From assembly GCA_030040965.1 (NCBI GenBank), contig JASHOT010000146.1, positions 1 through 32,831 of the forward strand: a stretch of DNA of 32,831 bases. Direction: 5' to 3'. The notes under the pieces were generated by a model. That model saw nothing but the letters and a program-made list of their open reading frames with translations, made no database searches and was not told where the DNA came from. The stretch's first letter is position 1; each line of letters opens with the position of its first letter. The stretch comes from Candidatus Sulfotelmatobacter sp. Its GTDB lineage: Bacteria; Acidobacteriota; Terriglobia; Terriglobales; Acidobacteriaceae. Shown here piece after piece: positions 11,239 through 24,315 of this stretch. Made by a program: the position numbers and the translations under genes.

Positions 11239-11510
11239 CCGCCCGGGAAAGTCCACGGCCGGATAGTCCGCTAAAAATGAACATCCCTGCATGAAGCGCC
11301 GAATGAAGCGCTCGGCCGGCATGAGACCAAAGACTGCGTACGAAGGACCATAAGTGGAAAACCCTTTCCGGTTTTTGTGACGAAAAATCTTTTCCCCGTG
11401 GCAAAGCTACAGAATGGTTGTACAATCTGCCCGATTCTGACCCCGAAGGCCACTTCCTCTGTAAGTCGATTGAACCCAAGAACGAAAATCCGAAGACCGA
11501 AGGAGAATTC

Positions 11511-14165
11511 ATGCTGAGAAGATTCAGTATTTCTGTGCTTGCGATCGTCGCCGTCATGTCGATCGCAGCTAGCATTGCCCATGCCCAGTCACCCACCCTC
11601 ACGCGTCACGTTCGAGAAGAGGTAGCAAGCGGGCGGGCGGCGTTAGTTGGCCACCTGCCGGCAACCCAGACCCTGCGTTTCGACATGGTTCTGCCGCTCC
11701 GCGACCGCGCCGGACTGCAAAATTTCCTGCAAGAACTCCAGGACCGCACGAGCCCCTTCTATCACCAGTTCCTCACCCCGCAGGAGTTTACCGCCCGCTT
11801 CGGCCCGAGCCAGGAAGACTGGGACACCCTCGTCGCCTACGCCAAATCCAGCGGCTTTGAAGTCGTCGGAGGAAACCGCGACGGCAGAGACCTGTGGCTC
11901 ACCGGTACGGTTGCCAACATCGAGAAAGCCTTCCACGTCAACATCAACAATTATCAGGATCCCACTGACGGACGCATCTTCTTTGCGATCGACCGCGAAC
12001 CTACCGTGGACCTTTCCATACAGATCTGGCACATCTCGGGTCTGGATAACGACTCCAGGCCGCATCCGCTGTATGTCAAGAAGAGCGACTACGCCAAGGC
12101 CCGAGGGATCGATCCCGATAAGGTCGTGTCTCACGCCACTACCGGCTCCGGCCCGTCGGCTTCCTTCTTAGGCAGCGACATGCGTGCCGCCTACTACGGC
12201 GGTACCGCGCTCACCGGTTCGGGACAGAACCTGGCCCTGTTCGAATTCGCGGGCACCGATTTGTCCGATCTCTCCACGTATTACAAAAATGTGGGGCAAA
12301 CGGAACCTTTCACCCCCACGCTGATTTCCACCGGCGGTTACGGCACCAGTTGCGTCGACAGCGGCAGCAGCGCTTGTGATGACACCGAGCAGACCATCGA
12401 CATGACCCAGTTCATGGGCATGGCCCCCGGCGCGACCATGCTGTACATGTACGTGTGCGGCGATGTTCTGGCCAGCGGGTCGGGCAATATCAGCGACACG
12501 GCCTGCATCAGCGCGATGGTTTCGACCACCGACGCTCCCTTGTCCAAGCAGATCAGCTGCTCCTGGGGCTGGACGCCGTCAGACGCCAGCACTCTGGACC
12601 CATACTTTGAGCAGATGGCCTCGCAAGGTCAGAATTTCTTTTCGGCGTCGGGAGATGACCAGGCGTGGTCTTCGTCGAATGAGGCCTGGCCGGCGGACGA
12701 TGCCAATATCGTATCGGTCGGCGGCACGGACCTGACCACTTCCAGCGCGGGTGGCCCATGGGCTTCGGAAACGGCATGGGTAGACAGTGGTGGCGGCGTT
12801 TCTCCTGACGACATCGCCATCCCCTCGTGGCAAACGCCTGTCGATACCTGCTCCGGTTGTTCCAAGACCCTGCGGAACGGTCCGGACGTTTCCGGCAACG
12901 CGAACTTCACTTACTACGTTTGCGCCGACCAAACCACCTGCACAGCCAACGAATACGGCGGTACCAGCTTTGCAACTCCAATGTGGGCGGGCTACCTGGC
13001 TCTGGCCAATCAGCAGGCTGCCGCCAACGGCAACACCATCGGCTACATCAATCCGAACATTTACCCGGCTGCTGAAGGATCGAGCTACAGCACGTACTTC
13101 CACGACATCACCAGTGGAAGCTGCGGCTCGCACTCGTCAGGCACGGGCTACGATCTGTGCACCGGATGGGGCAGTCCGAACACGACTGGATTGATCACCC
13201 TGTTGGCTGGATCGTCCTCTTCCTCGCCCAGCTTTACGCTCTCTGCTTCGCCGAACAGCGTAACGGTTACGCAAGGGAACAGCGGCACCAGCACCATCAC
13301 TGTGACCGATGTGGACGGATTTTCCGGCAGCGTCACGCTGGCCGCGTCTGGCTTGCCCAGCGGCGTCACGGCTACATTCAGCACGAATCCGACAACGTCA
13401 ACCAGCACTCTCACTCTGACCGCGAGCAGCACGGCCACGACTGGCACGGCTACGGTAACCATCACGGGAACATCGGGGAGCTTGACGGCGACTACCACCG
13501 TTTCACTGACCGTGAACTCCACGACTTCGCCGAACTTCAGCGTGAGCGCTTCGCCGACTTCCGTGAGCGTTGCTCAGGGCAGCAGCGGAACCAGCACGAT
13601 CACCGTCACCAGCACCGGCGGGTTTGACTCTGCTACTACGCTGAGCGCGAGCGGATTGCCCAGCGGCGTGACGGCAGCTTTCTCCACCAACCCGGTCACT
13701 CCGCCGGCCAACGGCAGCGCGACCTCAACCCTCACGCTGACAGCATCTTCCTCGGCAACGGTCGGAACGGCTACGGTGACGATCACCGGAACGTCGGGCT
13801 CGACCACCAACAGCACCACCATTTCTCTCACCGTTACTTCTACCGGGACCAAGAACTTCACGATGTCGTTGTCGCCATCCTCGTTCACCATTGATGACGG
13901 CAACACCGTCGGCACCACACTCACGATCACCAGCGTGAATGGGTTCAGTGGTTCGGTGGACTTGAGCGTGAACGAATTCCCGACTGACGTTTCCGCGACG
14001 GCTTCCTCGAACCCTGTGAGGGTCCCGGCCAACGGCAGCGCGACGGTCACCATTGACTGGAGCGCTTCAAGGCGTGCGCCGAGCGGAACCACAACCATTG
14101 AGCTGATCGGAACTTCCGGTTCGCTCAGCAACAGCACACCGGTCACGATTACCGTGGCGCCGTAA
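11511..14165 (+). CDS. Secreted S53 (sedolisin/kumamolisin) peptidase with Ig-like tail
   Basis: An 884-residue secreted serine-carboxyl protease. A signal peptide ends near AHA-Q24. The pro-kumamolisin activation domain follows (about 25-200; FYHQFLTPQEFTARFGPS is typical). The catalytic domain runs to about 570. The Ser-Glu-Asp triad is visible: E293 and D297 in EQTID, and S486 in GGTSFATP. Calcium ligands are probably D532 (HDITSG) and D548 (GYDLCTGWGSP). Three Ser/Thr-rich Ig-like repeats occupy residues 574-884. The ATG at 11511 is preceded by AGGAG at 11501-11505, and the signal peptide begins there, so the longer open frame is discounted. A weak -10-like TACAAT is at 11421. Sedolisins act on protein in acid conditions, fitting an acid-soil heterotroph. 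A terminator follows. Confidence 0.93.
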   Translation: MLRRFSISVLAIVAVMSIAASIAHAQSPTLTRHVREEVASGRAALVGHLPATQTLRFDMVLPLRDRAGLQNFLQELQDRTSPFYHQFLTPQEFTARFGPSQEDWDTLVAYAKSSGFEVVGGNRDGRDLWLTGTVANIEKAFHVNINNYQDPTDGRIFFAIDREPTVDLSIQIWHISGLDNDSRPHPLYVKKSDYAKARGIDPDKVVSHATTGSGPSASFLGSDMRAAYYGGTALTGSGQNLALFEFAGTDLSDLSTYYKNVGQTEPFTPTLISTGGYGTSCVDSGSSACDDTEQTIDMTQFMGMAPGATMLYMYVCGDVLASGSGNISDTACISAMVSTTDAPLSKQISCSWGWTPSDASTLDPYFEQMASQGQNFFSASGDDQAWSSSNEAWPADDANIVSVGGTDLTTSSAGGPWASETAWVDSGGGVSPDDIAIPSWQTPVDTCSGCSKTLRNGPDVSGNANFTYYVCADQTTCTANEYGGTSFATPMWAGYLALANQQAAANGNTIGYINPNIYPAAEGSSYSTYFHDITSGSCGSHSSGTGYDLCTGWGSPNTTGLITLLAGSSSSSPSFTLSASPNSVTVTQGNSGTSTITVTDVDGFSGSVTLAASGLPSGVTATFSTNPTTSTSTLTLTASSTATTGTATVTITGTSGSLTATTTVSLTVNSTTSPNFSVSASPTSVSVAQGSSGTSTITVTSTGGFDSATTLSASGLPSGVTAAFSTNPVTPPANGSATSTLTLTASSSATVGTATVTITGTSGSTTNSTTISLTVTSTGTKNFTMSLSPSSFTIDDGNTVGTTLTITSVNGFSGSVDLSVNEFPTDVSATASSNPVRVPANGSATVTIDWSASRRAPSGTTTIELIGTSGSLSNSTPVTITVAP
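13230..14162 (+). repeat. Three tandem Ig-like repeats within the S53 gene
   Basis: The tail of the S53 peptidase contains three homologous units of about 100 residues starting near 13230, 13533 and 13854. Each begins with an SFTLSASP, NFSVSASP or NFTMSLSP strand and contains a GFSGSVTL-like motif (degenerate in unit 2) and a TVTITGTSGS-like strand. Unit 3 is the most diverged. Such units are typical adhesion or spacer modules of exported proteins. Confidence 0.8.
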
Positions 14166-14274: not shown

Positions 14275-15726
14275 TCAAGCCCTCGTCTGCGGCCAAACAT
14301 TCTGATTGAGGCGGAAGAAGTTTCCCGGATCGTAGTGAGTCTTGACGGCGACCATGCGCTCCCATCGTTGGTGGTAAGCCTCGGGCACGCGATCCTGCTC
14401 GTCCCCGCTCATGAAATTCACGTAGACGCCGGGTTTCATCGTGGGCCGCAGCTTTTGAAAGAGCGAACGAATCCAGGAAATGTGCACCGCATCGGCCGAA
14501 GCATCCGCCCAATTCGCCAGCAGATTCATAATGAACGGTGCGCCGCGATCGCCAAACGCGGTTTCATCGGCGGCGACGCGGCCGGCTGCTCCACCAAGGT
14601 AGGCCAGTTCGATCTGCGTTTCTGGCGACGGAATGGTGGCCAGCGCTTCGAGCAAGCGATCGATCGTGGCATCGTCGAGATGGTTGAAGTAGCCTGACTT
14701 CGTGTAGTAGCGGCGGCCATGCGGAAACGCGGAATCGGCCATCGTCTGCAAATTTAGAAACGACATACGCTGACTGCGCACAGAATCGGGATGGCACAAC
14801 GAAAAGGCCCGCTGAATATACGGCTCCGCGGACTCCGGCTCGCCGGTCCAGATGATCGAAGTACTGGCAACCGGCCGCCCGTGAAGCTCTGCTGGGACGT
14901 CTTCCTCGTGTGGGGCAAGTCGGAGATCAACATTCCATTTCAGGCCGAAAGGAGCATCGGCCATGAAATCCCGCCAGCACTCAAGCAGTTGGCGAATTTT
15001 GCTTTCGGGAGTCAGGCCTTCCGCGAGTACAACCGAGCTCAGCGGATGAAGTTTCAATTCAAATTCGGCCACCACTCCAAAGTTGCCGCCACCTCCGCGC
15101 AGGGCCCAGAACAAGTCCGCATTCTGTTGTGAGTCGGCGCGCACGATGGATCCGTCGGCCGCGACCAGAGTAAAAGCTTCCACGTTGTCGCAGGACAAAC
15201 CAAATCGGCGCGTGAGCCAGCCTGTGCCACCGCCGAGGATGAGCCCGGAGGCGCCCGTATGGGAAACGACTCCGGAGGGAAAAACCAGCCCTGCTTTTTG
15301 CGTCGCAGTATCGATCGAGCCCAACAGGCACCCTCCGGCAACGCGAGCGCGCCGCGCGTCGGCATCGACCGTCACTTGCCGCATTCGCGATAAATCGATC
15401 ACGAGCCCGCCCTCGCACGTGCTGAAGCCCGCGAGGCTGTGCCCTCCACAGCGCACGGCGGTAAGAACTCCGGTTTCAGTTGCCACTCTGATCGCAGCCT
15501 GAATATCGCGAACATCAATACAGCGCGCGATCAAGCCGGGTCGCCGAGCGACCATGCCGTTCCAGATTGTGCGCGCCTCTTCGTAAGCGGGATCGCCGGG
15601 GCGTAGAAGATCGCCCTGGAATTGACGGCGAAGGGCCGAGTAAGTTTCGCGACAGGCGACATCTTGTTCGCAATTCACTTTCTCTGGCCGGCTCGGCGCT
15701 GGAGGATTTTTACCCTGGCTCGGCAT
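14275..15726 (-). CDS. FAD-linked oxidoreductase, berberine-bridge-enzyme type
   Basis: A 483-residue flavoprotein of the FAD_binding_4/BBE (PCMH-fold) family. H96 in VRCGGHSLAG is the expected histidine for covalent FAD attachment. GASGLILGGGTGWLTRRFGL and RGGGGNFGVV are FAD-binding signatures, and the C-terminal YDPGNFFRLNQNVWP is the BBE motif. The second, cysteinyl FAD link of plant berberine bridge enzyme is not apparent, so this is probably a single-link oxidase, as in 6-hydroxynicotine oxidase relatives. Substrates in the family range from sugars to amines and cannot be read from sequence. The ATG at 15726 is chosen over an upstream start that would overlap the permease by over 100 bases; the chosen start overlaps it by 17. 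It is the last gene of a PLP enzyme-permease-oxidase operon. Confidence 0.88.
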   Translation of the reverse strand: MPSQGKNPPAPSRPEKVNCEQDVACRETYSALRRQFQGDLLRPGDPAYEEARTIWNGMVARRPGLIARCIDVRDIQAAIRVATETGVLTAVRCGGHSLAGFSTCEGGLVIDLSRMRQVTVDADARRARVAGGCLLGSIDTATQKAGLVFPSGVVSHTGASGLILGGGTGWLTRRFGLSCDNVEAFTLVAADGSIVRADSQQNADLFWALRGGGGNFGVVAEFELKLHPLSSVVLAEGLTPESKIRQLLECWRDFMADAPFGLKWNVDLRLAPHEEDVPAELHGRPVASTSIIWTGEPESAEPYIQRAFSLCHPDSVRSQRMSFLNLQTMADSAFPHGRRYYTKSGYFNHLDDATIDRLLEALATIPSPETQIELAYLGGAAGRVAADETAFGDRGAPFIMNLLANWADASADAVHISWIRSLFQKLRPTMKPGVYVNFMSGDEQDRVPEAYHQRWERMVAVKTHYDPGNFFRLNQNVWPQTRA

Positions 15727-17197
15727 GCGATTTGGAGACCTGTCCGACCTTCTTATTCTCGCGATTACGAAAATTCCGGTTACGAAGATAAAGCAGAGTG
15801 ATGAATCCCAGAAAAACACAAAACGCTGGCACCGACCATTCGAGGCCGTCCACGAAAAACGTTGTCATCGCAATCGCCAGCAGCAATACCATGCCGGCCA
15901 CGGTAAAAAATGGATGCGCCCGCAAGCGCATGGGCAAACCCAACAGCTGCTCACGAGGCATAGCGCTACGAAAATAGACGTGGCTGCCGAGAACAACGAG
16001 CCACACGAAAAGCATGGCAGCGACCGCCGTTCCGTAGAGTGTGAGAAAAGCATTTTTCGGAGCGAAGACGGCAAGCAGAATCGCGGCAATAATTCCCGCG
16101 GTAGAAACCAGCAGCGCGCGATGCGGAACTCCATTGCGGCTAACCCTGCCGATCGCATCCGGGGCATAGCCTTCCCGTCCCAGAGAGAACAGCATCCGCG
16201 TGGAAAGATAAAGATTGGTGTTGACACTGGAGAGCGCGGCGGTCAGTACAACGAAATTCATGATGGCCGCGGCGAAGGGCACGTGCGCCAGCGAAAAAGC
16301 GATCACGAACGGGCTGCCGGCAAGGCCGGACGAACCGGTGCTCTGATTCCATGGAACCATGGCGACCGTAATGGCAATCGCCAGCACATAAAACAGGATG
16401 AGCCGCCAGACAATATTCCGCATGGCGCGAGGGATGGTGACTTCGGGACGTTCGGCCTCTCCGGCAGTCACCGCGATGCTCTCCACTCCCATGTAGCTGG
16501 TGATCGTGATGGTCAACGAAAGCCAGACTCCTTTCCAGCCGTTCGGAAAAAATCCTCCATGTTGCGTGAGATTCGCCCAGCCATTCACTCCGTGCGGTCC
16601 GTGGCCAAAAACGATGAAAAGTCCGACCACAATAAACGCCACGATCGCCGTGACTTTGATCATGGCAAACCAATATTCAAATTCGCCCAGTCGGTTGACC
16701 TGCATCGCGTTGAGCGCTACCAAAGCGGCAGAGACCAGCACCACCCAAATCCATTGCGGAACATTTGGAAACCAATAAGAAATGTATATGCCGGCCGCTG
16801 TGACTTCGGCGCCGATGGCGATGATCTGTGCCGCACCGTAACTTGCGCGGACGGAAAATCCCGCCCAGGGATTGAGATAGTTCTCCGCATACACTCCGAA
16901 GGCGCCGGCGACGGGATGCACGACTGCCATCTCCGCCAGCACATACGACATGATCAAGGCAATGCCGGCTCCCAAAAGATAGGAAAGAATGACGGCGGGA
17001 CCTGCCAATCGAATCGTGACGCCGCTTCCCAGGAACAAGCCGACGCCGATCGCGCCGCCGATCGCCATCATGGTGAGCTGGCGCTGGCTCAGCCGGCGTT
17101 GCAACCCGTCATTCATGCTGGAAGGAAGCGTTTCCGGCTCTTTGGAAGAAGATGTTTCCGGCGAGAGCATGGAGCCGGCTTGCTTGCCGTTCAGCAT
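15710..17197 (-). CDS. APC-family amino acid permease
   Basis: A 495-residue permease with about twelve membrane helices, resembling the AAT subgroup (GabP/AnsP/ProY-like). The N-terminal [19 protein letters not shown] (41-59) is the conserved helix-1 substrate loop. [26 protein letters not shown] and a conserved [23 protein letters not shown] segment follow. It should import an amino acid or amine using the proton gradient. The first ATG overlaps the upstream PLP-enzyme stop by seven bases; a later ATG, giving [10 protein letters not shown] at residue 28, is also possible. Its position between a PLP enzyme and a flavin oxidase suggests it delivers their substrate. Substrate identity is unknown. 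Confidence 0.9.
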
Positions 17198-18480
17198 GAG
17201 GGTGAAATTTCGGCCAGGGCGCGGCCGAACCGGCGCACTTCTTCGCGCGTGTTGTAGTGCACCAGCGACGCTCGCACCGCGCCGCTCTCCAGAGCAAGCC
17301 CCAGTCTCTTCATCAGGCGAGGCGTATACATGTGGCCATCGCGTATGCCGATATTCGCCCGCGCCAGTTCTTCCGTCACTCTTGCCGGTGGGATTTTCGG
17401 CAGATTGAAGCAGAGCGTCGGTACCCGCAGGCTGACCCGGTTTTTATCGGAGACGCCGTACACCGTCGCTCCGCAATTTTTCAGCACATCCAGCATTTCA
17501 AGAGACAGGCCTTGCTCGTAGGCCTGGATCGCGGTTAAAGCCTTTTCGAGGGACGCTCGCCGCGAAACAGCTTTTTTCTCCACGTGGAGAGCATTTCCGA
17601 GCTCTTCCAGATAGCGCACGGCTGCATCCATGCCCGCGACATTTTCATAGATAAAAGTTCCTGCCTCGATTTTTCCCGGCGGTTCGTCAGGAATGAAATC
17701 TTCACGGAACGTCGGCAGCGCCTGCAGCAACTCGCGCCGGCCCCAAAGGAATCCCATGTGCGGAGCGAATATTTTGTAGCCCGAACACACCAGGTAATCG
17801 CAATCAAACGCCTGCACGTCAATTAATCCGTGCGGGCCGAAGTGCACGGCATCAAGAAAAATTTCTGCGCCGGATCGGTGCGCAACCTTGGCCGCGGCTG
17901 CCACGTCCACAATCGAGCCGATCGCATTCGAAGTCAGCGTGCAGGCTACGAGGCGTGTTTTCGTTGAGAGCAGCGGCGCCAGATCGTCGGCATGCAGCAG
18001 GCCATCCCCCCGCACTTTCCACCACTGGAATTTCGCGCCACTTCGCTCCAAGGCCAGCCATGTGGCAACGTTGGCTTCGTGATCCAAATCCGTGACTACG
18101 ATTTCGTTGCGCGCGCCGAGGGTTTGTCCGATGGCCAGACTCACCAGGCGAATAAACGAAGTCGCGTTCATGCCGAATGCGATCTCGCTCGGATCTCGGG
18201 CATTCACCAGATCCGCCACGCTCTGCCGCGCGCGCGCCACCGTTGCATCCACTTCACGGCTGTGGACGTAGCGTCCTCCGCGTTGCACATTGCATTCGAG
18301 CAGATGACGGTTCACGGCGTCGAAAACGATCTGAGGAATCTGCGCTCCGGCGGCATTGTCAAGAAAAACAAATCCTTGATTGCGCGCGGAATTCAGCGCG
18401 GGAAAAGCGGCTCGCACGCCGGCAATGGGAAAGCTTGCGGCCGCCACGCTGTCGGAACTCAGAATGCCCTTCGCCTGCAC
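17191..18480 (-). CDS. PLP enzyme, class V aminotransferase / cysteine-desulfurase-like (no catalytic Cys)
   Basis: A 429-residue fold-type I PLP enzyme of the class V group, closest in pattern to the cysteine-desulfurase-like TIGR01976 proteins. [13 protein letters not shown] lies near the N-terminus. H134 (TDLDHEAN) should stack on PLP. D210 ([11 protein letters not shown]) contacts the pyridine nitrogen. K236 ([12 protein letters not shown]) is the Schiff-base lysine. R403 ([15 protein letters not shown]) should hold the substrate carboxylate. Where SufS-type desulfurases carry the active-site cysteine, this protein has GHMYTP (382-387), so desulfuration by the usual route is unlikely; a lyase, epimerase or aminotransferase role is possible. 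The start is GTG at 18480 with AGGAG seven bases upstream. It leads the permease-oxidase operon and is divergent from the ThDP decarboxylase genes. Confidence 0.86.
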
Positions 18481-18519
18481 GGTTTGCTCCTGGAAATCCG
18501 AGAGTGCATTGCTAGTCGC

Positions 18520-18633
18520 GTTATCCCGATGGCCCGCGTTTTCACCAGCGGGTCGAGGGATCTCCCGCTACGACGCCGATTCTGCGAGGGAGATCCCTCG
18601 CTCCGCCTAAAGAACGGCTTTGCTCGGGATGAC
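18520..18633. repeat. Palindromic REP/MITE-like element
   Basis: The 309-base gap between the divergent PLP and ThDP genes contains nested inverted repeats. Outer arms are GTTATCCCGA (18520-18529) and TCGGGATGAC (18624-18633), matching at 9 of 10 positions. Inner arms are CGAGGGATCTCCC (18554-18566) and GGGAGATCCCTCG (18588-18600), a perfect 13-bp pair around a 21-base loop. The layout looks like a dispersed palindromic repeat. No transposase or clear target duplication is seen, and copy number elsewhere is unknown. The rest of the gap (18634-18721) shows no gene, only a TAGAAT at 18713-18718 that could be a -10. Confidence 0.6.
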
Positions 18634-18721
18634 GCCAGCAATCGCCAAAGCGCGAATTCAGACGATACATTACCGCCGATTTCGAAATCCGGCATCTTCC
18701 GCCGTCGTGGGCTAGAATATC

Positions 18722-18790
18722 TGTTTTCGTTTGTCGGTGAAAGCCGATGCGACGCCTGTGGGGCGCTCACATCGGCGTAAATCGAAAACA
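18722..18790 (+). promoter_or_regulatory. Leader hairpin ending at the ThDP alpha-subunit start codon
   Basis: Three nested complementary arms fold the 5' leader: TGTTTTCG (18722-18729) with CGAAAACA (18783-18790), GCCGATG (18743-18749) with CATCGGC (18770-18776), and CGCC (18753-18756) with GGCG (18762-18765). The outermost arm includes the A of the ATG at 18790, and no Shine-Dalgarno site precedes that ATG. A translation-control or transcript-stability role is inferred. Confidence 0.5.
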
Positions 18791-19302
18791 TGCCAGTATC
18801 GTTAACCAGTTCGCAGGTTATCTTCGACGCGCTGAAGAAGTGCGATGTCCGCCTGCTTTCGGCTCTGCCGGAGACCTGGCTGGTCCATCTCATCCGCATG
18901 GCAGACGACGATCCGGAAACGATTCTCGTGCGTCTGGCAAAGGAAGAGGAAGGAGTCGGCATCTCGGCGGGGGCGCATTTCGCCGGCGTCAAATCGGCCA
19001 TGCTGATGCAGAACCACGGCTTCCTCGCCTCGATCAACGGCATCGTTTCATTCGCACACCTGTACAAGATTCCTCTGCTGATGCTGATCAGCTACCGCGG
19101 CACTTTCGGAGAGCGTGACCCTTGGCAGACGCAGGGCGGCAACGTGACCGAATCTCTGTTACGCGCTATGGCCATTCCATATTCTTTTCTCGACAAAGTC
19201 CAAACCGTCGAGAAACGCGTGCGGCAGGCGCAAACTCTTGCCGAGAGCAGCTTGCAACCCGTCGCCCTTCTGCTGACGCGCGACCTGATGTGGGAGGAGT
19301 AA
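18790..19302 (+). CDS. ThDP-dependent decarboxylase, alpha subunit (sulfopyruvate decarboxylase type)
   Basis: A 170-residue protein forming the pyrimidine-binding half of a split thiamin diphosphate decarboxylase. The activating glutamate lies in the cluster E52-E54 of LAKEEEGVGISAGAHFAG, a signature shared by sulfopyruvate decarboxylase ComD and phosphonopyruvate decarboxylase. MLMQNHGFLASING and IPLLMLISYRG are further conserved stretches. Its stop codon overlaps the beta-subunit start, so the two are coupled. ComDE makes sulfoacetaldehyde in coenzyme M synthesis. No other coenzyme M genes are nearby, and relatives decarboxylate other 2-oxo acids, so substrate is open. The ATG lacks a ribosome site and lies at the base of a leader hairpin. 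Confidence 0.85.
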   Translation: MPVSLTSSQVIFDALKKCDVRLLSALPETWLVHLIRMADDDPETILVRLAKEEEGVGISAGAHFAGVKSAMLMQNHGFLASINGIVSFAHLYKIPLLMLISYRGTFGERDPWQTQGGNVTESLLRAMAIPYSFLDKVQTVEKRVRQAQTLAESSLQPVALLLTRDLMWEE

Positions 19303-19874
19303 TGCTGCGTCTCGACTGCTTGCGCGCGATCTACTCGGAACTCGGTAAATGTCTGGTCGTCACCATCATGGGAGCGACCGCGGCCGAGTTGCATTCGCTC
19401 GGTCACCGTGCGAACTTTTTTTATCTGCAACATGCCATGGGCCTTGCGTCTTCGACCGGGCTGGGGTTGGCATTGTCGCTGCCGAGTCAGAAAATCGTTG
19501 TCTTCGATGGCGACGGTTCGCTTCTCATGAATCTCGGCAGCTTGAGCACCATGGCGCGCTATCGGCCCGGAAATTTGCTGCATGTCGTATTCGACAATGA
19601 AAGCTTGTTGTCTGTTGGCGGTTTCCCGACTGCAACCAGCACGGGCACCGATTTGGAAGGCATCGCCCGCGCCTCTGGAATTCCGCGAGCGCTCACGGTG
19701 CGTACCGTCGAGGATTTCAAAACTGCGGTGAAAGGCGCGTTGGATGGCGATCAGTTGACGACCATCGTCGCCAAAGTCGAAGCGACCGGACCCTCCGGCT
19801 ACGTGACCGATCTGTCGTTGGTGGAGAATCGTTTCCAGTTTCGACGGCATATTCAGTCGCTAAAGCGAGCGTGA
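19302..19874 (+). CDS. ThDP-dependent decarboxylase, beta subunit (sulfopyruvate decarboxylase type)
   Basis: A 190-residue partner providing the diphosphate-binding half. The ThDP/Mg2+ motif begins GDGS (70-73) and ends at D98-N99 (VVFDN). MGLASSTGLGLALSLP and SVGGFPTATSTGTDLEGIARASGI match the ComE / phosphonopyruvate decarboxylase C-terminal pattern. The ATG overlaps the alpha-subunit stop (TAATG) with GGAGG at 19293-19297 just upstream, so 1:1 synthesis is likely. With the alpha chain it should decarboxylate a 3-substituted pyruvate to an aldehyde. A cyclase-family gene follows 55 bases later, probably in the same transcript. Confidence 0.88.
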   Translation: MLRLDCLRAIYSELGKCLVVTIMGATAAELHSLGHRANFFYLQHAMGLASSTGLGLALSLPSQKIVVFDGDGSLLMNLGSLSTMARYRPGNLLHVVFDNESLLSVGGFPTATSTGTDLEGIARASGIPRALTVRTVEDFKTAVKGALDGDQLTTIVAKVEATGPSGYVTDLSLVENRFQFRRHIQSLKRA

Positions 19875-19929
19875 CTCGCCAAGTCACACTGGAAGCCGAT
19901 CCAAACGACCGATTCTCCAAGGAGTGCGA

Positions 19930-20706
19930 ATGTCTCAAGTCTTGCAACAACTGCTGGAAGAACTTGCCAACGGCAAACTGCGCGTCATCGATCTCACCCA
20001 ACCGTTGAGTCCGCAGACGCCCTTGCTGCCGCTGCCGCCGCAGTTCAACAACACGCCCGCATTCAAGATCTGGGAACTGTCGCACTATGACGAGCGCGGC
20101 CCGGCCTGGTACTGGAACGGATTTGAGACCGGCGAGCACACCGGCACTCATTTCGATGCGCCGATTCACTGGGTTTCGGGCAAGGACTTGCCTGACAACT
20201 CTGTCGACCGCATTCCGCCGCGAAAATTTGTTGGCCCGGCGTGCGTGATCGACATCAGCGCGGACGCGGCCGTCGATGCGAATTATCTGCTCACTCCGGA
20301 TCGCATCCGGCAATGGGAGGAGAAGCACGGACGCATCCCGGCGGGCGCATGGGTGCTGTTGCGAACGGACTGGTCGAAACGGAAAGATCCGAAGGAATAC
20401 ATCAACGCCAAGGAAAACGGCCCGCATACGCCTGGATTGGCGCAGGCAACTTCGGCGCTGCTCGCGAAGGAGCGGGACGTGCTTGGCGTCGGAGTGGAAA
20501 CGGTTGGCACCGACGCCGGCCAGGCCTTCACCTTCGATCCTCCATTTCCGAATCACTATCTCATGCACGGTAGCGGTAAGTTTGGGCTGGCCAGCCTGTG
20601 CAATCTCGATCAGCTTCCGCCGACCGGAGCCGTCGTCATCGCCGCGCCGTTAAAGATCGTGGGCGGTTCCGGCAGTCCGCTGCGCGTCATCGCAATCACG
20701 CCGTGA
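19930..20706 (+). CDS. Cyclase-family metal-dependent hydrolase (kynurenine formamidase-like fold)
   Basis: A 258-residue member of the cyclase/KynB superfamily. The metal-binding signature HxGTHxDxPxH is intact: H70, H74, D76 and H80 in EHTGTHFDAPIHW. IDLTQPLSP at the start, WVLLRTDW in the middle and VGVETVGTDAG near the C-terminus are family features. Members hydrolyse N-formylkynurenine, isatin, or cyclic and amide bonds in other compounds, or are of unknown substrate. The ATG at 19930 has AAGGAG at 19919-19924, whose last G begins an alternative GTG start. The insert before the motif (PPQFNNTPAFKIWELSHYDERGP) is longer than in bacterial KynB, so kynurenine specificity should not be assumed. 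It is third in the ThDP alpha-beta operon. Confidence 0.88.
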   Translation: MSQVLQQLLEELANGKLRVIDLTQPLSPQTPLLPLPPQFNNTPAFKIWELSHYDERGPAWYWNGFETGEHTGTHFDAPIHWVSGKDLPDNSVDRIPPRKFVGPACVIDISADAAVDANYLLTPDRIRQWEEKHGRIPAGAWVLLRTDWSKRKDPKEYINAKENGPHTPGLAQATSALLAKERDVLGVGVETVGTDAGQAFTFDPPFPNHYLMHGSGKFGLASLCNLDQLPPTGAVVIAAPLKIVGGSGSPLRVIAITP

Positions 20707-22336: not shown

Positions 22337-22978
22337 TCAAAATCCCTGTTCCACCAGCTCTTCAATCGTCAGTGAACTTTCCGCGTCGCCTCGCATCATC
22401 TTCTCGACGTATTTTGCGATCAGATCCGCTTCCAGGTTCACCGGGTCGCCGGGCTTGAGCGAATGCAGGTTCGTCATCTCGACCGTGTGCGGGATGATGG
22501 CGATGGTGCAGCGACCGTGCTCCAGCTTCGCGACGGTGAGACTGATACCCTCAATTGAAATCGATCCCTTGAAGACAGTATATTTTTCGATCTCTGCGGG
22601 CAGTTCGAGTTCCAGCCACCAGTTGTCAGAATCTTCGATGCGATCGAAGGAAATCAGCCGGCCCACGCCATCGACGTGGCCCTGCACGATGTGGCCGCCG
22701 AAGCGGCCGTCGGCTTTCATGGGTAATTCGAGGTTGACCAGCGCGCCTTCGTGAATGCGAGAGAAGGATGTCCGCGCCCAGGTTTCGGGCGCGAGATCGG
22801 CGCAGAACGAATTTGGCGTGATATCGACTGCGGTCAGGCAGACGCCGCTTACCGAGACGCTGTCGCCGGTCTTGAGTTCTTTCGGCGTGCGTCCCGCGGT
22901 GATCGTAATGCGGCGGTTCTCGCCGCGCTGCTGGATATGGCTAATGCGTCCGATTTCTTCGACGATGCCGGTAAACAT
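22337..22978 (-). CDS. ribE: Riboflavin synthase, alpha subunit
   Basis: A 213-residue enzyme that dismutates two 6,7-dimethyl-8-ribityllumazines into riboflavin and a pyrimidinedione. It has the two expected lumazine-binding repeats: MFTGIVEEIG with SGVCLTAV (44-51), and GGHIVQGHVDG (94-104) with a VSIEGISLTVAKLE segment. The open frame reaches 23032, but MFTGIVEE is the invariant N-terminus and the ATG at 22978 has GGAGGGC about five bases upstream. It lies 119 bases downstream of ribD on the same strand, probably one transcript. Genes for lumazine synthase and RibBA are not in the window. Confidence 0.96.
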   Translation of the reverse strand: MFTGIVEEIGRISHIQQRGENRRITITAGRTPKELKTGDSVSVSGVCLTAVDITPNSFCADLAPETWARTSFSRIHEGALVNLELPMKADGRFGGHIVQGHVDGVGRLISFDRIEDSDNWWLELELPAEIEKYTVFKGSISIEGISLTVAKLEHGRCTIAIIPHTVEMTNLHSLKPGDPVNLEADLIAKYVEKMMRGDAESSLTIEELVEQGF

Positions 22979-23097
22979 AAAGCCCTCCGAGATGAACGCA
23001 ATATTGTAAACGGAGCGATCGGCTTTCAGCACTGAACATTCAGTCAGGGAAGGCCCGATGAGGATCGATGGTGGCTGAATGCCGAGTGCTGATTGCT

Positions 23098-24315
23098 TCA
23101 GTCCGCGTACGGATCGCGCACATATCCCTCGACGGCGAAGTCGTCTCCGAAACGGTGCAGCTGAATGTTTCGCAGTTCGATGTTTGGAGCGTGTCCCGTT
23201 CCGCTCGCGCGTGGCAATCCCGCGTCTGCGGCGAATGGAACTGCGTCCGCGTCAGCCATGATCCTCGGCGCGTAATAGAAAAAGACTTTGTCCACTATAT
23301 TTGTGGCGAGCGCACTCGCGTTAAGCGTAGATCCCCCCTCCATCATCACGCTCGTGATCTCCAACTCGGCGAGACGGCGCAAGACCGCGCGCAAATCGGA
23401 GCGATGATCGGGCAGAGAGGCAGAAATCTTTTCCACACGAACTCCGAGTTGCTCCAGTTGCGATTTTTTCCGATCGCTGGCGGAGGAGTACAAAACCAGC
23501 ATGTCAGACGTCTTCTCTCGAACCACGCTTTCCACCAGCCTCGATTCAAGCGGCAGGCGCAGGCGCGAATCCAGGATTACGCGCAGCAGCGGACGGCGGC
23601 GCTCGCGGCCACTGCGATCCGTAAGCAGTGGATTGTCGGCAAGAACCGCACCCACACCGACCAGAATGGCGTCCTGCTGATGGCGCATTTCGTGCACGTG
23701 AGCGCGTGCCGTCTCGCCTGTGATCCAACTTCCGGAATAAGATCCTGAATATCTGTCCGTACGATTTCCCGAAGATTTGGCTGAAGCGCTTCTGCGATTC
23801 GCCGCCTTTGCCGGAGCAATTTTTCCATCGAGCGTCATCGCCGACTTCAGCGTGACCAGCGGCACGCCGTGGCGAATGTAGCGGGCAAATGCCTCGTTCA
23901 GCTTGCGCGCCTGCTCTTCCAGGTGCCCCACTTCGACGTGAATTCCGGCGGCGCGGAGCTGTTCAAAACCGCGCCCGCTCACTTTCGGATTCGGATCGGG
24001 CATCGACGCGACCACGCGATGAATGCCAGCGGCAATCAGCGCATCGGTGCAGGGCGGCGTGCGTCCCTGATGCGCGTGCGGCTCCAGGCTGATATACAGG
24101 GTTCCGCCGCGCGCCTTCGCGCCCGCTTGCTCGAGTGCAATAATCTCCGCGTGCTTTACATCGGCGTAGGTATAGGTTCCGGTGCCCGCGATGTTGCCAT
24201 GGGCGTCGGCAATAACCGCGCCTACGTAGGGATTCGGCGAAGCCAGACCAATTCCCGCGCGCGCCAGTTCCAGAGCGCGATGGAGGAAACGCTCGTCATC
24301 GGCGTGAGTCGACAT
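23098..24315 (-). CDS. ribD: Bifunctional riboflavin deaminase/reductase RibD
   Basis: A 405-residue enzyme for the second and third steps of riboflavin synthesis: deamination of the pyrimidine, then NADPH reduction of the ribosyl group. The cytidine-deaminase-like domain (1-145) has SPNPYVGAVI, H55-A56-E57 and TPPC (C89). The usual first zinc cysteine in LEPC is histidine here (LEPH, H80), which I confirmed on the DNA at 24075-24077. The reductase domain (150-405) carries LKSAMTLDGKIA, WITGE, DAILVG and MMEGGS. A Ser/Arg/Ala-rich insert of about 28 residues (168-195) separates DGKIA from WITGE, where ordinary RibD proteins have a few residues. No FMN riboswitch is evident upstream (24316-24548). 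Confidence 0.94.
   Translation of the reverse strand: MSTHADDERFLHRALELARAGIGLASPNPYVGAVIADAHGNIAGTGTYTYADVKHAEIIALEQAGAKARGGTLYISLEPHAHQGRTPPCTDALIAAGIHRVVASMPDPNPKVSGRGFEQLRAAGIHVEVGHLEEQARKLNEAFARYIRHGVPLVTLKSAMTLDGKIAPAKAANRRSASAKSSGNRTDRYSGSYSGSWITGETARAHVHEMRHQQDAILVGVGAVLADNPLLTDRSGRERRRPLLRVILDSRLRLPLESRLVESVVREKTSDMLVLYSSASDRKKSQLEQLGVRVEKISASLPDHRSDLRAVLRRLAELEITSVMMEGGSTLNASALATNIVDKVFFYYAPRIMADADAVPFAADAGLPRASGTGHAPNIELRNIQLHRFGDDFAVEGYVRDPYAD

Follow-up and report, generated by a model that had tools for sequence, protein, structure and literature searches.

Isatin and isatinic acid have been detected as intermediates of indole and auxin breakdown (PMC9613470). A 2018 review asks whether isatin truly lies on the path, and urges that isatin hydrolase genes be studied for their function (PMC6221969). 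A 2025 preprint on the iad genes assigns genes to earlier steps and describes IadI as a possible broad-specificity amidase; the passages of it cited here tie no gene to the conversion of C8H7NO3 to C7H7NO and then to anthranilic acid (PMC12633357). Another relevant system is LumK/LumL, a two-subunit enzyme dependent on thiamine diphosphate (ThDP) that decarboxylates an aromatic heterocyclic acid; two-subunit ThDP decarboxylases have been called rare (PMC12746152). Here, these systems are compared with a block of six genes in contig JASHOT010000146.1 of Candidatus Sulfotelmatobacter sp. The whole stretch analysed, 32,831 nucleotides long, is called the window. The block has two divergent arms, and in the right arm a two-subunit ThDP enzyme is followed by a relative of the isatin hydrolases, here called the cyclase.

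With a rough probability of 0.55, the right arm is a two-step module in which isatin would be hydrolysed to isatinate and isatinate would be decarboxylated, the left arm feeding or extending it. Gene identities, conservation of active-site and pocket residues, and co-conservation of genes were computed; from these we propose a substrate, a product, a sequence of steps and a coupling between the arms. The most useful result appears to be the ThDP-cyclase core, a new combination of known enzyme families that is a testable candidate for isatinate decarboxylation. In the literature searched, neither an isatinate decarboxylase nor a cyclase-ThDP gene pair is described. The genes of the right arm are:

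18790-19302, plus strand: ThDP-dependent decarboxylase-like alpha (PYR) subunit (TIGR03845, 126.5 bits against a cut-off of 147.95)
19302-19874, plus strand: ThDP-dependent decarboxylase-like beta (PP) subunit (PF02775, 1.1e-17; TIGR03846, 126.7 bits against a cut-off of 221.5)
19924-20706, plus strand: isatin-hydrolase-family cyclic amidohydrolase, the cyclase (PF04199; phmmer matches to isatin hydrolases)

The beta gene starts at the ATG at 19302, where one base is common to the alpha stop and the beta start (TAATG). The longer in-frame open reading frame (ORF) 19122-19874, on which the beta domain scans were run, is not the beta gene. The alpha protein is kept at 84-94% identity among genomes of the genus that hold the gene whole, and at 67-80% in loci from records named as other phyla. 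These are therefore not chance ORFs.

The cyclase

The family PF04199 spans several chemistries, and for this reason the subfamily of the cyclase was tested. In phmmer searches against solved structures, it matches isatin hydrolases from Ralstonia and Labrenzia (5nmp, 2.4e-97; 5nna, 6.6e-97; 4j0n, 1.4e-79), while its match to kynurenine formamidase is far weaker (1.7e-6). Its identity to the isatin hydrolase of Labrenzia aggregata (A form) is 56%, and to that of Ralstonia solanacearum 58%.

Residue numbers and roles follow passages of PMC6117287. The manganese ligands H69, H73 and D75 (His-x3-His-x-Asp) are kept in 61 of 61 aligned ThDP-linked cyclases, the window's included, as are the catalytic H79, D193 and H207 and the pocket residues W59, W61 and W80. 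Positions 32 and 34 are hydrophobic as in isatin hydrolases (L/I32, L34) in all 60 cyclases with letters there. Cyclase copies broken in two (L063, L068) fall outside these counts through a coverage filter. The cyclase genes in two pieces or with a stop in these two loci, and the oxidase genes in a like state in L055, L058 and L068, reflect either decay or assembly error.

Paralogues from the same class and family, with 31-39% identity, served as controls (10 fetched of 22 listed). All ten keep the metal site; their pocket differs (W32, Y/V59, S/A/T/G61, F80, E219). Tyrosine 204 of the Labrenzia isatin hydrolase A (LaIHA) is F in the window cyclase, as it is in LaIHB, and positions 219-220 are A-S. 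Here the window cyclase is unlike isatin hydrolase A and the same as isatin hydrolase B.

In the cyclase tree (midpoint root), the ThDP-linked cyclases are not a clade apart. Their common ancestor takes in both solved isatin hydrolases used, at a node with weak support (0.31). Judged by these residues and matches, the cyclase is a homologue of the Mn-type isatin hydrolases.

The two-subunit ThDP enzyme

The best NCBIfam match of the alpha subunit is the sulfopyruvate decarboxylase alpha model TIGR03845, below its cut-off. The beta subunit matches phosphonopyruvate and sulfopyruvate decarboxylase models about equally. Against the phosphonopyruvate decarboxylase model TIGR03297, the two subunits score 77.7 and 130.3 bits with a cut-off of 312.5, which is hard for one subunit alone to reach, as the 360-position model spans both. 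Among 80 aligned loci, at least 97% keep the DPWQT stretch of the alpha subunit. The hydrolase encoded next to the ThDP enzyme is related to the isatin hydrolases, and this kinship points to an aryl-glyoxylate, for instance isatinate, as the substrate.

Distant homologues of the alpha subunit (33-38% identity) occur on plasmids. In the three inspected of 84 records, they lie amid aldehyde dehydrogenase and CoA-transferase genes, and no annotated cyclase was found at these three loci. Riboflavin synthase and RibD genes lie at 22337-24315 of the window, 1.6 kb downstream of the block. A link to riboflavin, considered on account of these genes (1.6-4 kb off) and the paper on lumichrome, was set aside because P450, Rieske and xanthine-oxidase-like genes are absent among the 26 window proteins scanned.

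The pair in other genomes

The locus survey comprises the window and the best 80 of 90 public loci. These are 80 loci and not 80 genomes (L052 and L071 come from one genome); the record titles of all 80 say metagenome-assembled genome, and their phylum labels may in places be incorrect. In 66 of the 81 loci, the cyclase comes after ThDP beta in the same orientation, and in 65 the gap is shorter than 300 bases. Eight of the 15 loci without a downstream cyclase end within 300 bases of the ThDP genes. The phyla named in the titles of the 80 records are Acidobacteria, Chloroflexi, Gemmatimonadetes, Planctomycetota, Bacteroidetes and others.

A second sample was an even draw of 396 genomes across the phylum, with the window's own genome and one member of its genus among the co-carriers. 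ThDP alpha is found in 8 of these genomes, the cyclase in 12 and both in 6, and the two are adjacent in 6/6 (hypergeometric 5e-9). Two genomes have the ThDP gene without a cyclase: one locus is cut by a contig end, and in the other genome neither the 5.7 kb downstream nor any other place yielded a cyclase at that cut-off.

Two Chloroflexota loci have a kynureninase over its cut-off downstream of the core (L123:5661, L125:3345). A gene of one cluster sits between core and kynureninase in both, and the L125 copy, which was scanned, is an Eis-type acetyltransferase. Two cyclases without ThDP genes adjoin what appears by eye to be a sodium:solute symporter (L173:1264-2730, L174:4622-6112), maybe another family context.

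Cyclase relatives on plasmids

From 57 plasmid records of cyclase relatives, 15 loci were chosen for taxonomic spread; 14 are annotated (H89 is without annotation). In 7 of the 14, a different ThDP enzyme is adjacent to the cyclase relative or within three genes of it. In three (Deinococcus psychrotolerans, Rhodococcus erythropolis and Deinococcus sp.), the next gene downstream codes for a single-chain ThDP enzyme. Four have alpha and beta genes of the indolepyruvate:ferredoxin-oxidoreductase type (Tsukamurella, Tritonibacter, Sulfitobacter and Paracoccus), which we take to use ThDP. When the single-chain enzymes of L148 and L151 were scanned, no shown model was over its cut-off; the third, and the ferredoxin-oxidoreductase genes, are identified by their annotated names. 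The other seven loci have no annotated ThDP gene within 5-8 kb in the PLSDB gene table, which is incomplete.

Salicylyl-CoA-5-hydroxylase-type genes, which presumably include 2-aminobenzoyl-CoA monooxygenases, occur in 3 of the 14 annotated loci. One plasmid locus holds the cyclase relative with an indole/styrene monooxygenase, a flavin reductase and an SDR, like the iif indole set as presented in parts of the 2018 review (PMC6221969). On a Deinococcus plasmid (L163:4971-10732), a cyclase and a single-chain ThDP gene lie opposite a class V enzyme dependent on pyridoxal phosphate (PLP), an FAD oxidoreductase and an Xaa-Pro peptidase. This mix of functions resembles that of the window, with no permease in the stretch seen.

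An example of a known gene order is found in a Sulfitobacter and a Roseibium locus without annotated ThDP genes (L129, L147). Their order matches iadC-J, given in the preprint as oxygenase reductase, Rieske alpha, Rieske beta, AMP ligase, thiolase, alcohol dehydrogenase, amidase and dehydrogenase (PMC12633357). The cyclase relative therefore stands at the place of IadI, by gene order and not by sequence comparison; IadI itself is annotated as a kynurenine formamidase (PMC12633357). Two further loci (L150, L168) hold only the ligase-thiolase-dehydrogenase-cyclase part of this order.

In the passages cited, C8H7NO2 lies upstream of the IadI step, and the likely intermediates from the IadI product to anthranilic acid are C8H7NO3 and C7H7NO (PMC12633357). 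By our assignment, dioxindole, isatinic acid and 2-aminobenzaldehyde would match these three formulae. Earlier iad work detected the first two of these compounds as well as isatin (PMC9613470). The chemistry proposed for the window pair is of this kind, the ring being opened and CO2 then lost to leave an aldehyde.

A proposed route

The process would start with an indole compound, imported or made internally, that is converted to isatin; the EncM-like enzyme of the left arm is a candidate oxygenase for this step. Next, the cyclase would hydrolyse the lactam of isatin, or of a close oxindole, giving isatinate, a 2-oxo acid. The ThDP pair would decarboxylate isatinate, probably to 2-aminobenzaldehyde and CO2. 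Finally, general dehydrogenases could oxidise 2-aminobenzaldehyde to anthranilate. In the genus, the left arm (permease, class V PLP enzyme and EncM-like flavoenzyme) would probably feed or extend the same catabolism of aromatic or indole amino acids. The two middle steps are proposed because of the conserved residues, the gene order and the iad metabolites.

A broader version is put forward tentatively, at somewhat less than even odds. In it, an isatin hydrolase and a two-subunit ThDP isatinate decarboxylase would form a widespread, undescribed isatin route in Acidobacteriota, Chloroflexota, Gemmatimonadota, Planctomycetota and others. Candidatus Sulfotelmatobacter would add an amino-acid permease, class V PLP lyases and an EncM-like oxygenase, making it a full route from an imported indole amino acid.

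Several observations weigh against the isatin module. Six of the 81 loci hold the ThDP genes with no cyclase in more than 9 kb, and L080 has none in 1.4 kb. Conversely, 6 of the 12 cyclase genomes in the phylum draw are without a ThDP match nearby (one of these loci is only 3.7 kb long). This one-sided dependence is itself in line with the module: it would be expected of a ThDP enzyme that takes up what the cyclase produces, and of a cyclase that is also of use in other routes. In the seven plasmid cyclases beside other kinds of ThDP enzyme the pocket varies, with W59 in 4/7, W61 in 5/7 and W80 in 7/7. The scan of 26 window proteins turned up neither an indole oxygenase nor an anthranilate gene. 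In the iad system, the compound upstream of IadI, C8H7NO2, fits dioxindole and not isatin (PMC12633357). A Variovorax locus-deletion strain regained anthranilic acid with the nine-gene region iadC-K2, in which the passages cited describe no gene for a ThDP enzyme (PMC12633357); a dedicated one is thus not needed there. Lastly, both arms occur apart in other genera.

The host also has a kynureninase and a tryptophan dioxygenase, on a separate contig (C327). Tryptophan therefore has a second path to anthranilate, and the handling of isatin may serve scavenging or detoxification. These two genes are common across the 28 genus genomes searched, whether or not the module is present, and are for that reason uninformative as markers of co-occurrence.

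Isatin-hydrolase relatives paired with three kinds of ThDP enzyme give a testable handle on isatinate processing, including in uncultured bacteria of soil and groundwater. If the isatin module is real, it would supply an enzyme between isatinate and the level of anthranilate. It would also add an aryl-glyoxylate to the substrates of the two-subunit ThDP decarboxylases, the group described as rare in the part of the riboflavin work cited (PMC12746152).

The left arm

The left arm and the gap between the arms consist of:

14275-15819, minus strand: BBE-family oxidase/oxygenase using flavin adenine dinucleotide (FAD) (Pfam PF01565, FAD_binding_4, and PF08031, BBE)
15710-17197, minus strand: APC-family amino-acid permease (Pfam PF00324, AA_permease, 4e-103)
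17191-18480, minus strand: class V PLP enzyme (Aminotran_5) of the VC1184 group (TIGR01976, 518.3 bits against a cut-off of 352.35)
18481-18789, no strand: divergent gap of 309 bases

ORFs and Pfam and NCBIfam domains bear out the six genes, strands, overlaps, divergent arms and gap that the first-pass annotation had described. Its picture of a catabolic-looking block, with genes for import, PLP, ThDP and flavin chemistry and ring or amide hydrolysis, also agrees with the domain scans. The permease and PLP ORFs overlap by 7 nt. The oxidase and permease overlap by 110 nt as listed, or by 17 nt if the oxidase begins at the in-frame ATG at 15726, which is the more likely start. Neither a sigma-70-like promoter nor a terminator came up in a consensus scan of 18300-19000.

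The closest solved structure to the FAD oxidase is EncM (4xlo, phmmer 6.2e-133). EncM-type enzymes are flavin-N5-oxide oxygenases, with covalent His-FAD and N5-oxide chemistry. The motif RCGGHS is present in 13/13 aligned oxidase orthologues, and its His is presumably the FAD-linking residue. The permease does not reach the cut-off in any of the 25 NCBIfam models shown.

For the PLP enzyme, the closest solved structure is FGM3 (9x4u, phmmer 9.7e-53), and the lysine motif SGYKIF[AG]PH is kept in 12/12 aligned orthologues. TIGR01976 is a hypothetical equivalog whose function is not given. A cysteine desulfurase (SufS/CsdA) identity is not supported, as the enzyme scores 221.5 bits against the TIGR01979 cut-off of 475.1. 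In the region matching the usual active-site Cys motif of cysteine desulfurases, all eight orthologue tails printed (12 aligned) have RDGHMY. FGM3 is a PLP enzyme of fusaoctaxin that carries out a retro-aldol reaction, and in its modelled form Y225 is named as the putative base in the passages cited (PMC10367076). By sequence, these relationships to EncM and FGM3 do not fix the substrate of the left arm.

In other genera, the neighbours of left-arm genes are an outer-membrane beta-barrel protein, an M61 peptidase, amidohydrolases and GntR regulators. With such neighbours, the left arm may be able to process amino acids that are peptide-bound or acylated. At 11418-14165, the window encodes a large protease of the kumamolisin type, matched through its pro-domain, whose C-terminal part holds repeated stretches. 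It is about 65% identical to a relative in G006, where a cyclase fragment lies on the same contig.

Are the arms linked?

Linkage was examined in 45 genomes of the genus (G040, G042 and G043 by kinship check), which are not independent by descent; E-value cut-offs differ per gene. The right arm is present in 20 of the 45. A permease orthologue occurs in 20/20 genomes with the right arm against 1/25 without it, and either PLP enzyme in 20/20 against 0/25. The one exception, G035, has a second class V enzyme (PLP2), the permease and the oxidase on a 3.1-kb contig with no ThDP gene, its PLP2 piece being below the count cut-off. G011 (permease 63%, PLP2 58%, no ThDP) is outside the positives of this count; with its distant homologues counted, the permease is found in 2/25 and either PLP enzyme in 1/25 of the genomes without the right arm. 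In G006, which is without ThDP, a fragment of the cyclase sits at the end of a contig. G029 was counted as without oxidase, although its locus L055 holds the gene in two pieces.

PLP2 is found in 19 of the 20 right-arm genomes and the window type of PLP enzyme in 13. The window genome alone among the 20 is without PLP2 (E 1e-60). In relatives, PLP2 lies between the permease and the PLP gene (L049:6311-7480), which the window joins directly (17191-17197).

The possibility that the arms are unrelated neighbours, the left one a separate system of amino-acid uptake and PLP chemistry whose divergent position beside the isatin-type module in this genus is chance, is a serious one, though it falls short of an even chance. 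Oxidase, permease and PLP enzyme occur together without ThDP in G048, as do permease and PLP in G087 and G057, while G090 and the genome of L072 (G075) have the ThDP genes without left-arm orthologues. Within the genus, G011 has its permease-PLP2 pair without ThDP, and synteny is shared by descent among relatives. The tight linkage within the genus speaks for a connection, as do PLP2-like genes near cyclase-ThDP loci in Gemmatimonadota (L091, L106, L107, L114), in a Dehalococcoidia locus (L093) and in a Deinococcus; a PLP2 homologue at the same level (33%) also stands beside a permease without ThDP in G054.

The first-pass annotation had inferred that the two arms act together, and had proposed to look for the co-occurrence of these families in gene neighbourhoods. 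Co-conservation within the genus agrees with joint action. Outside it each arm is found alone, and the data therefore do not establish one obligate pathway. In three Gemmatimonadota loci (L091, L106, L107), a PLP2-like enzyme and an unrelated sodium symporter of amino-acid type lie upstream of the ThDP-cyclase core. The PLP2-like enzymes of the Gemmatimonadota loci are 37-40% identical to two genus copies; L114 has the gene without the symporter. The symporter cluster occurs in 10 loci in all, and the eight members scanned match the SNF family. A transporter and a class V PLP enzyme thus seem to have joined the core at least twice, with different transporters, and this repeated joining favours a substrate derived from an amino acid.

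Alternative substrates

It is possible, but unlikely, that the pair acts on some other cyclic 2-oxo amide or lactone that also gives a 2-oxo acid, by the same two-step logic. The cyclase family is functionally broad: a homologue 25% identical to isatin hydrolase is a dihydrophloroglucinol cyclohydrolase (PMC10470551). Most of the loci come from uncultured bacteria of unknown diet, and position 204 of the cyclase differs from isatin hydrolase A. On the other side, the conserved W59, W61, W80, L/I32 and L34 match the isatin hydrolases and set these cyclases apart from the paralogues, and cyclase relatives are found in indole-, auxin- or anthranilate-type loci. The cyclohydrolase, as far as described in the passages cited, has Trp and Tyr at the places of Ile32 and Leu34 of isatin hydrolase (PMC10470551).

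Sulfonate catabolism, in which the PLP enzyme would make sulfopyruvate from cysteate and the ThDP pair would convert it to sulfoacetaldehyde, is highly improbable. It draws on the best NCBIfam match of the alpha subunit and the shared one of beta, but both subunits fall under the curated cut-offs, their partner is an isatin-hydrolase relative, and the PLP enzyme belongs to a cysteine-desulfurase-like/FGM3 group. In addition, the 25 commonest neighbour families (of 93 matched in 74 neighbour proteins, the rarer ones unseen) include no sulfonate family. The first-pass annotation had named a 3-substituted pyruvate, such as a sulfonate, as substrate, and this proposal is not supported, as the subunits score below the ComDE and phosphonopyruvate decarboxylase cut-offs (the latter from a model spanning both subunits) and the partner hydrolase points elsewhere. 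A phosphonate route was set aside on the curated cut-offs and the partner. The other suggestion of the first-pass annotation, derivatives of aromatic amino acids, comes close: given the isatin-hydrolase-type partner it fits better than a sulfonate.

A kynurenine route, with the cyclase as kynurenine formamidase and the PLP enzyme as kynureninase, was rejected and has even less in its favour (kynureninase genes in L123 and L125; kynurenine formamidase as a member of PF04199 and as the annotation of IadI, PMC12633357), since the cyclase scores 34.6 bits against the TIGR03035 cut-off of 223, position 219 is A or T in 61/61 where the verified KynB enzymes of the source cited have Glu (PMC6117287), and the host's kynureninase and tryptophan dioxygenase sit elsewhere.

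Comparison with known systems

EncM (enterocin) and FGM3 are the closest solved structures of the left-arm FAD and PLP enzymes, but the window genes stand in a catabolic-looking context. The window PLP enzyme also has Phe at the presumed position of Y225 in FGM3, with the numbering offset judged by eye.

The sulfopyruvate decarboxylase ComDE and the phosphonopyruvate decarboxylase RhiEF share with the window the split design of a ThDP enzyme in two subunits, alpha with PYR and beta with PP. The window subunits differ in falling below the curated family cut-offs. After a conserved RG, the window has GERDPWQTQGG where RhiE has GNDAVEHDIIG.

LumK/LumL, the quinoxaline carboxylate decarboxylase of riboflavin catabolism, is alike in being a two-subunit ThDP enzyme with an aromatic 2-oxo-acid-like substrate in a catabolic operon, as described in part of PMC12746152. 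This likeness is drawn from the published description, and P450, Rieske and xanthine-oxidase-like genes are absent from the scanned window proteins.

The isatin hydrolases LaIHA and RsIHA share the Mn-ligand and catalytic residues, the aromatic pocket and 56-58% identity with the window cyclase, which at 204, 219 and 220 is the same as the IHB form. Unlike them, the window cyclase shares an operon with a two-subunit ThDP enzyme.

In the iad loci, the difference is again in the ThDP enzyme. The window has a two-subunit decarboxylase type beside the cyclase, and no Rieske oxygenase among its scanned proteins. The likeness is twofold: cyclase relatives 55-58% identical to the window's stand at the place of IadI in two plasmid loci, and a ThDP-type oxidoreductase belongs to the iad loci as well, in the ferredoxin-oxidoreductase genes IadA/IadB (PMC9613470).

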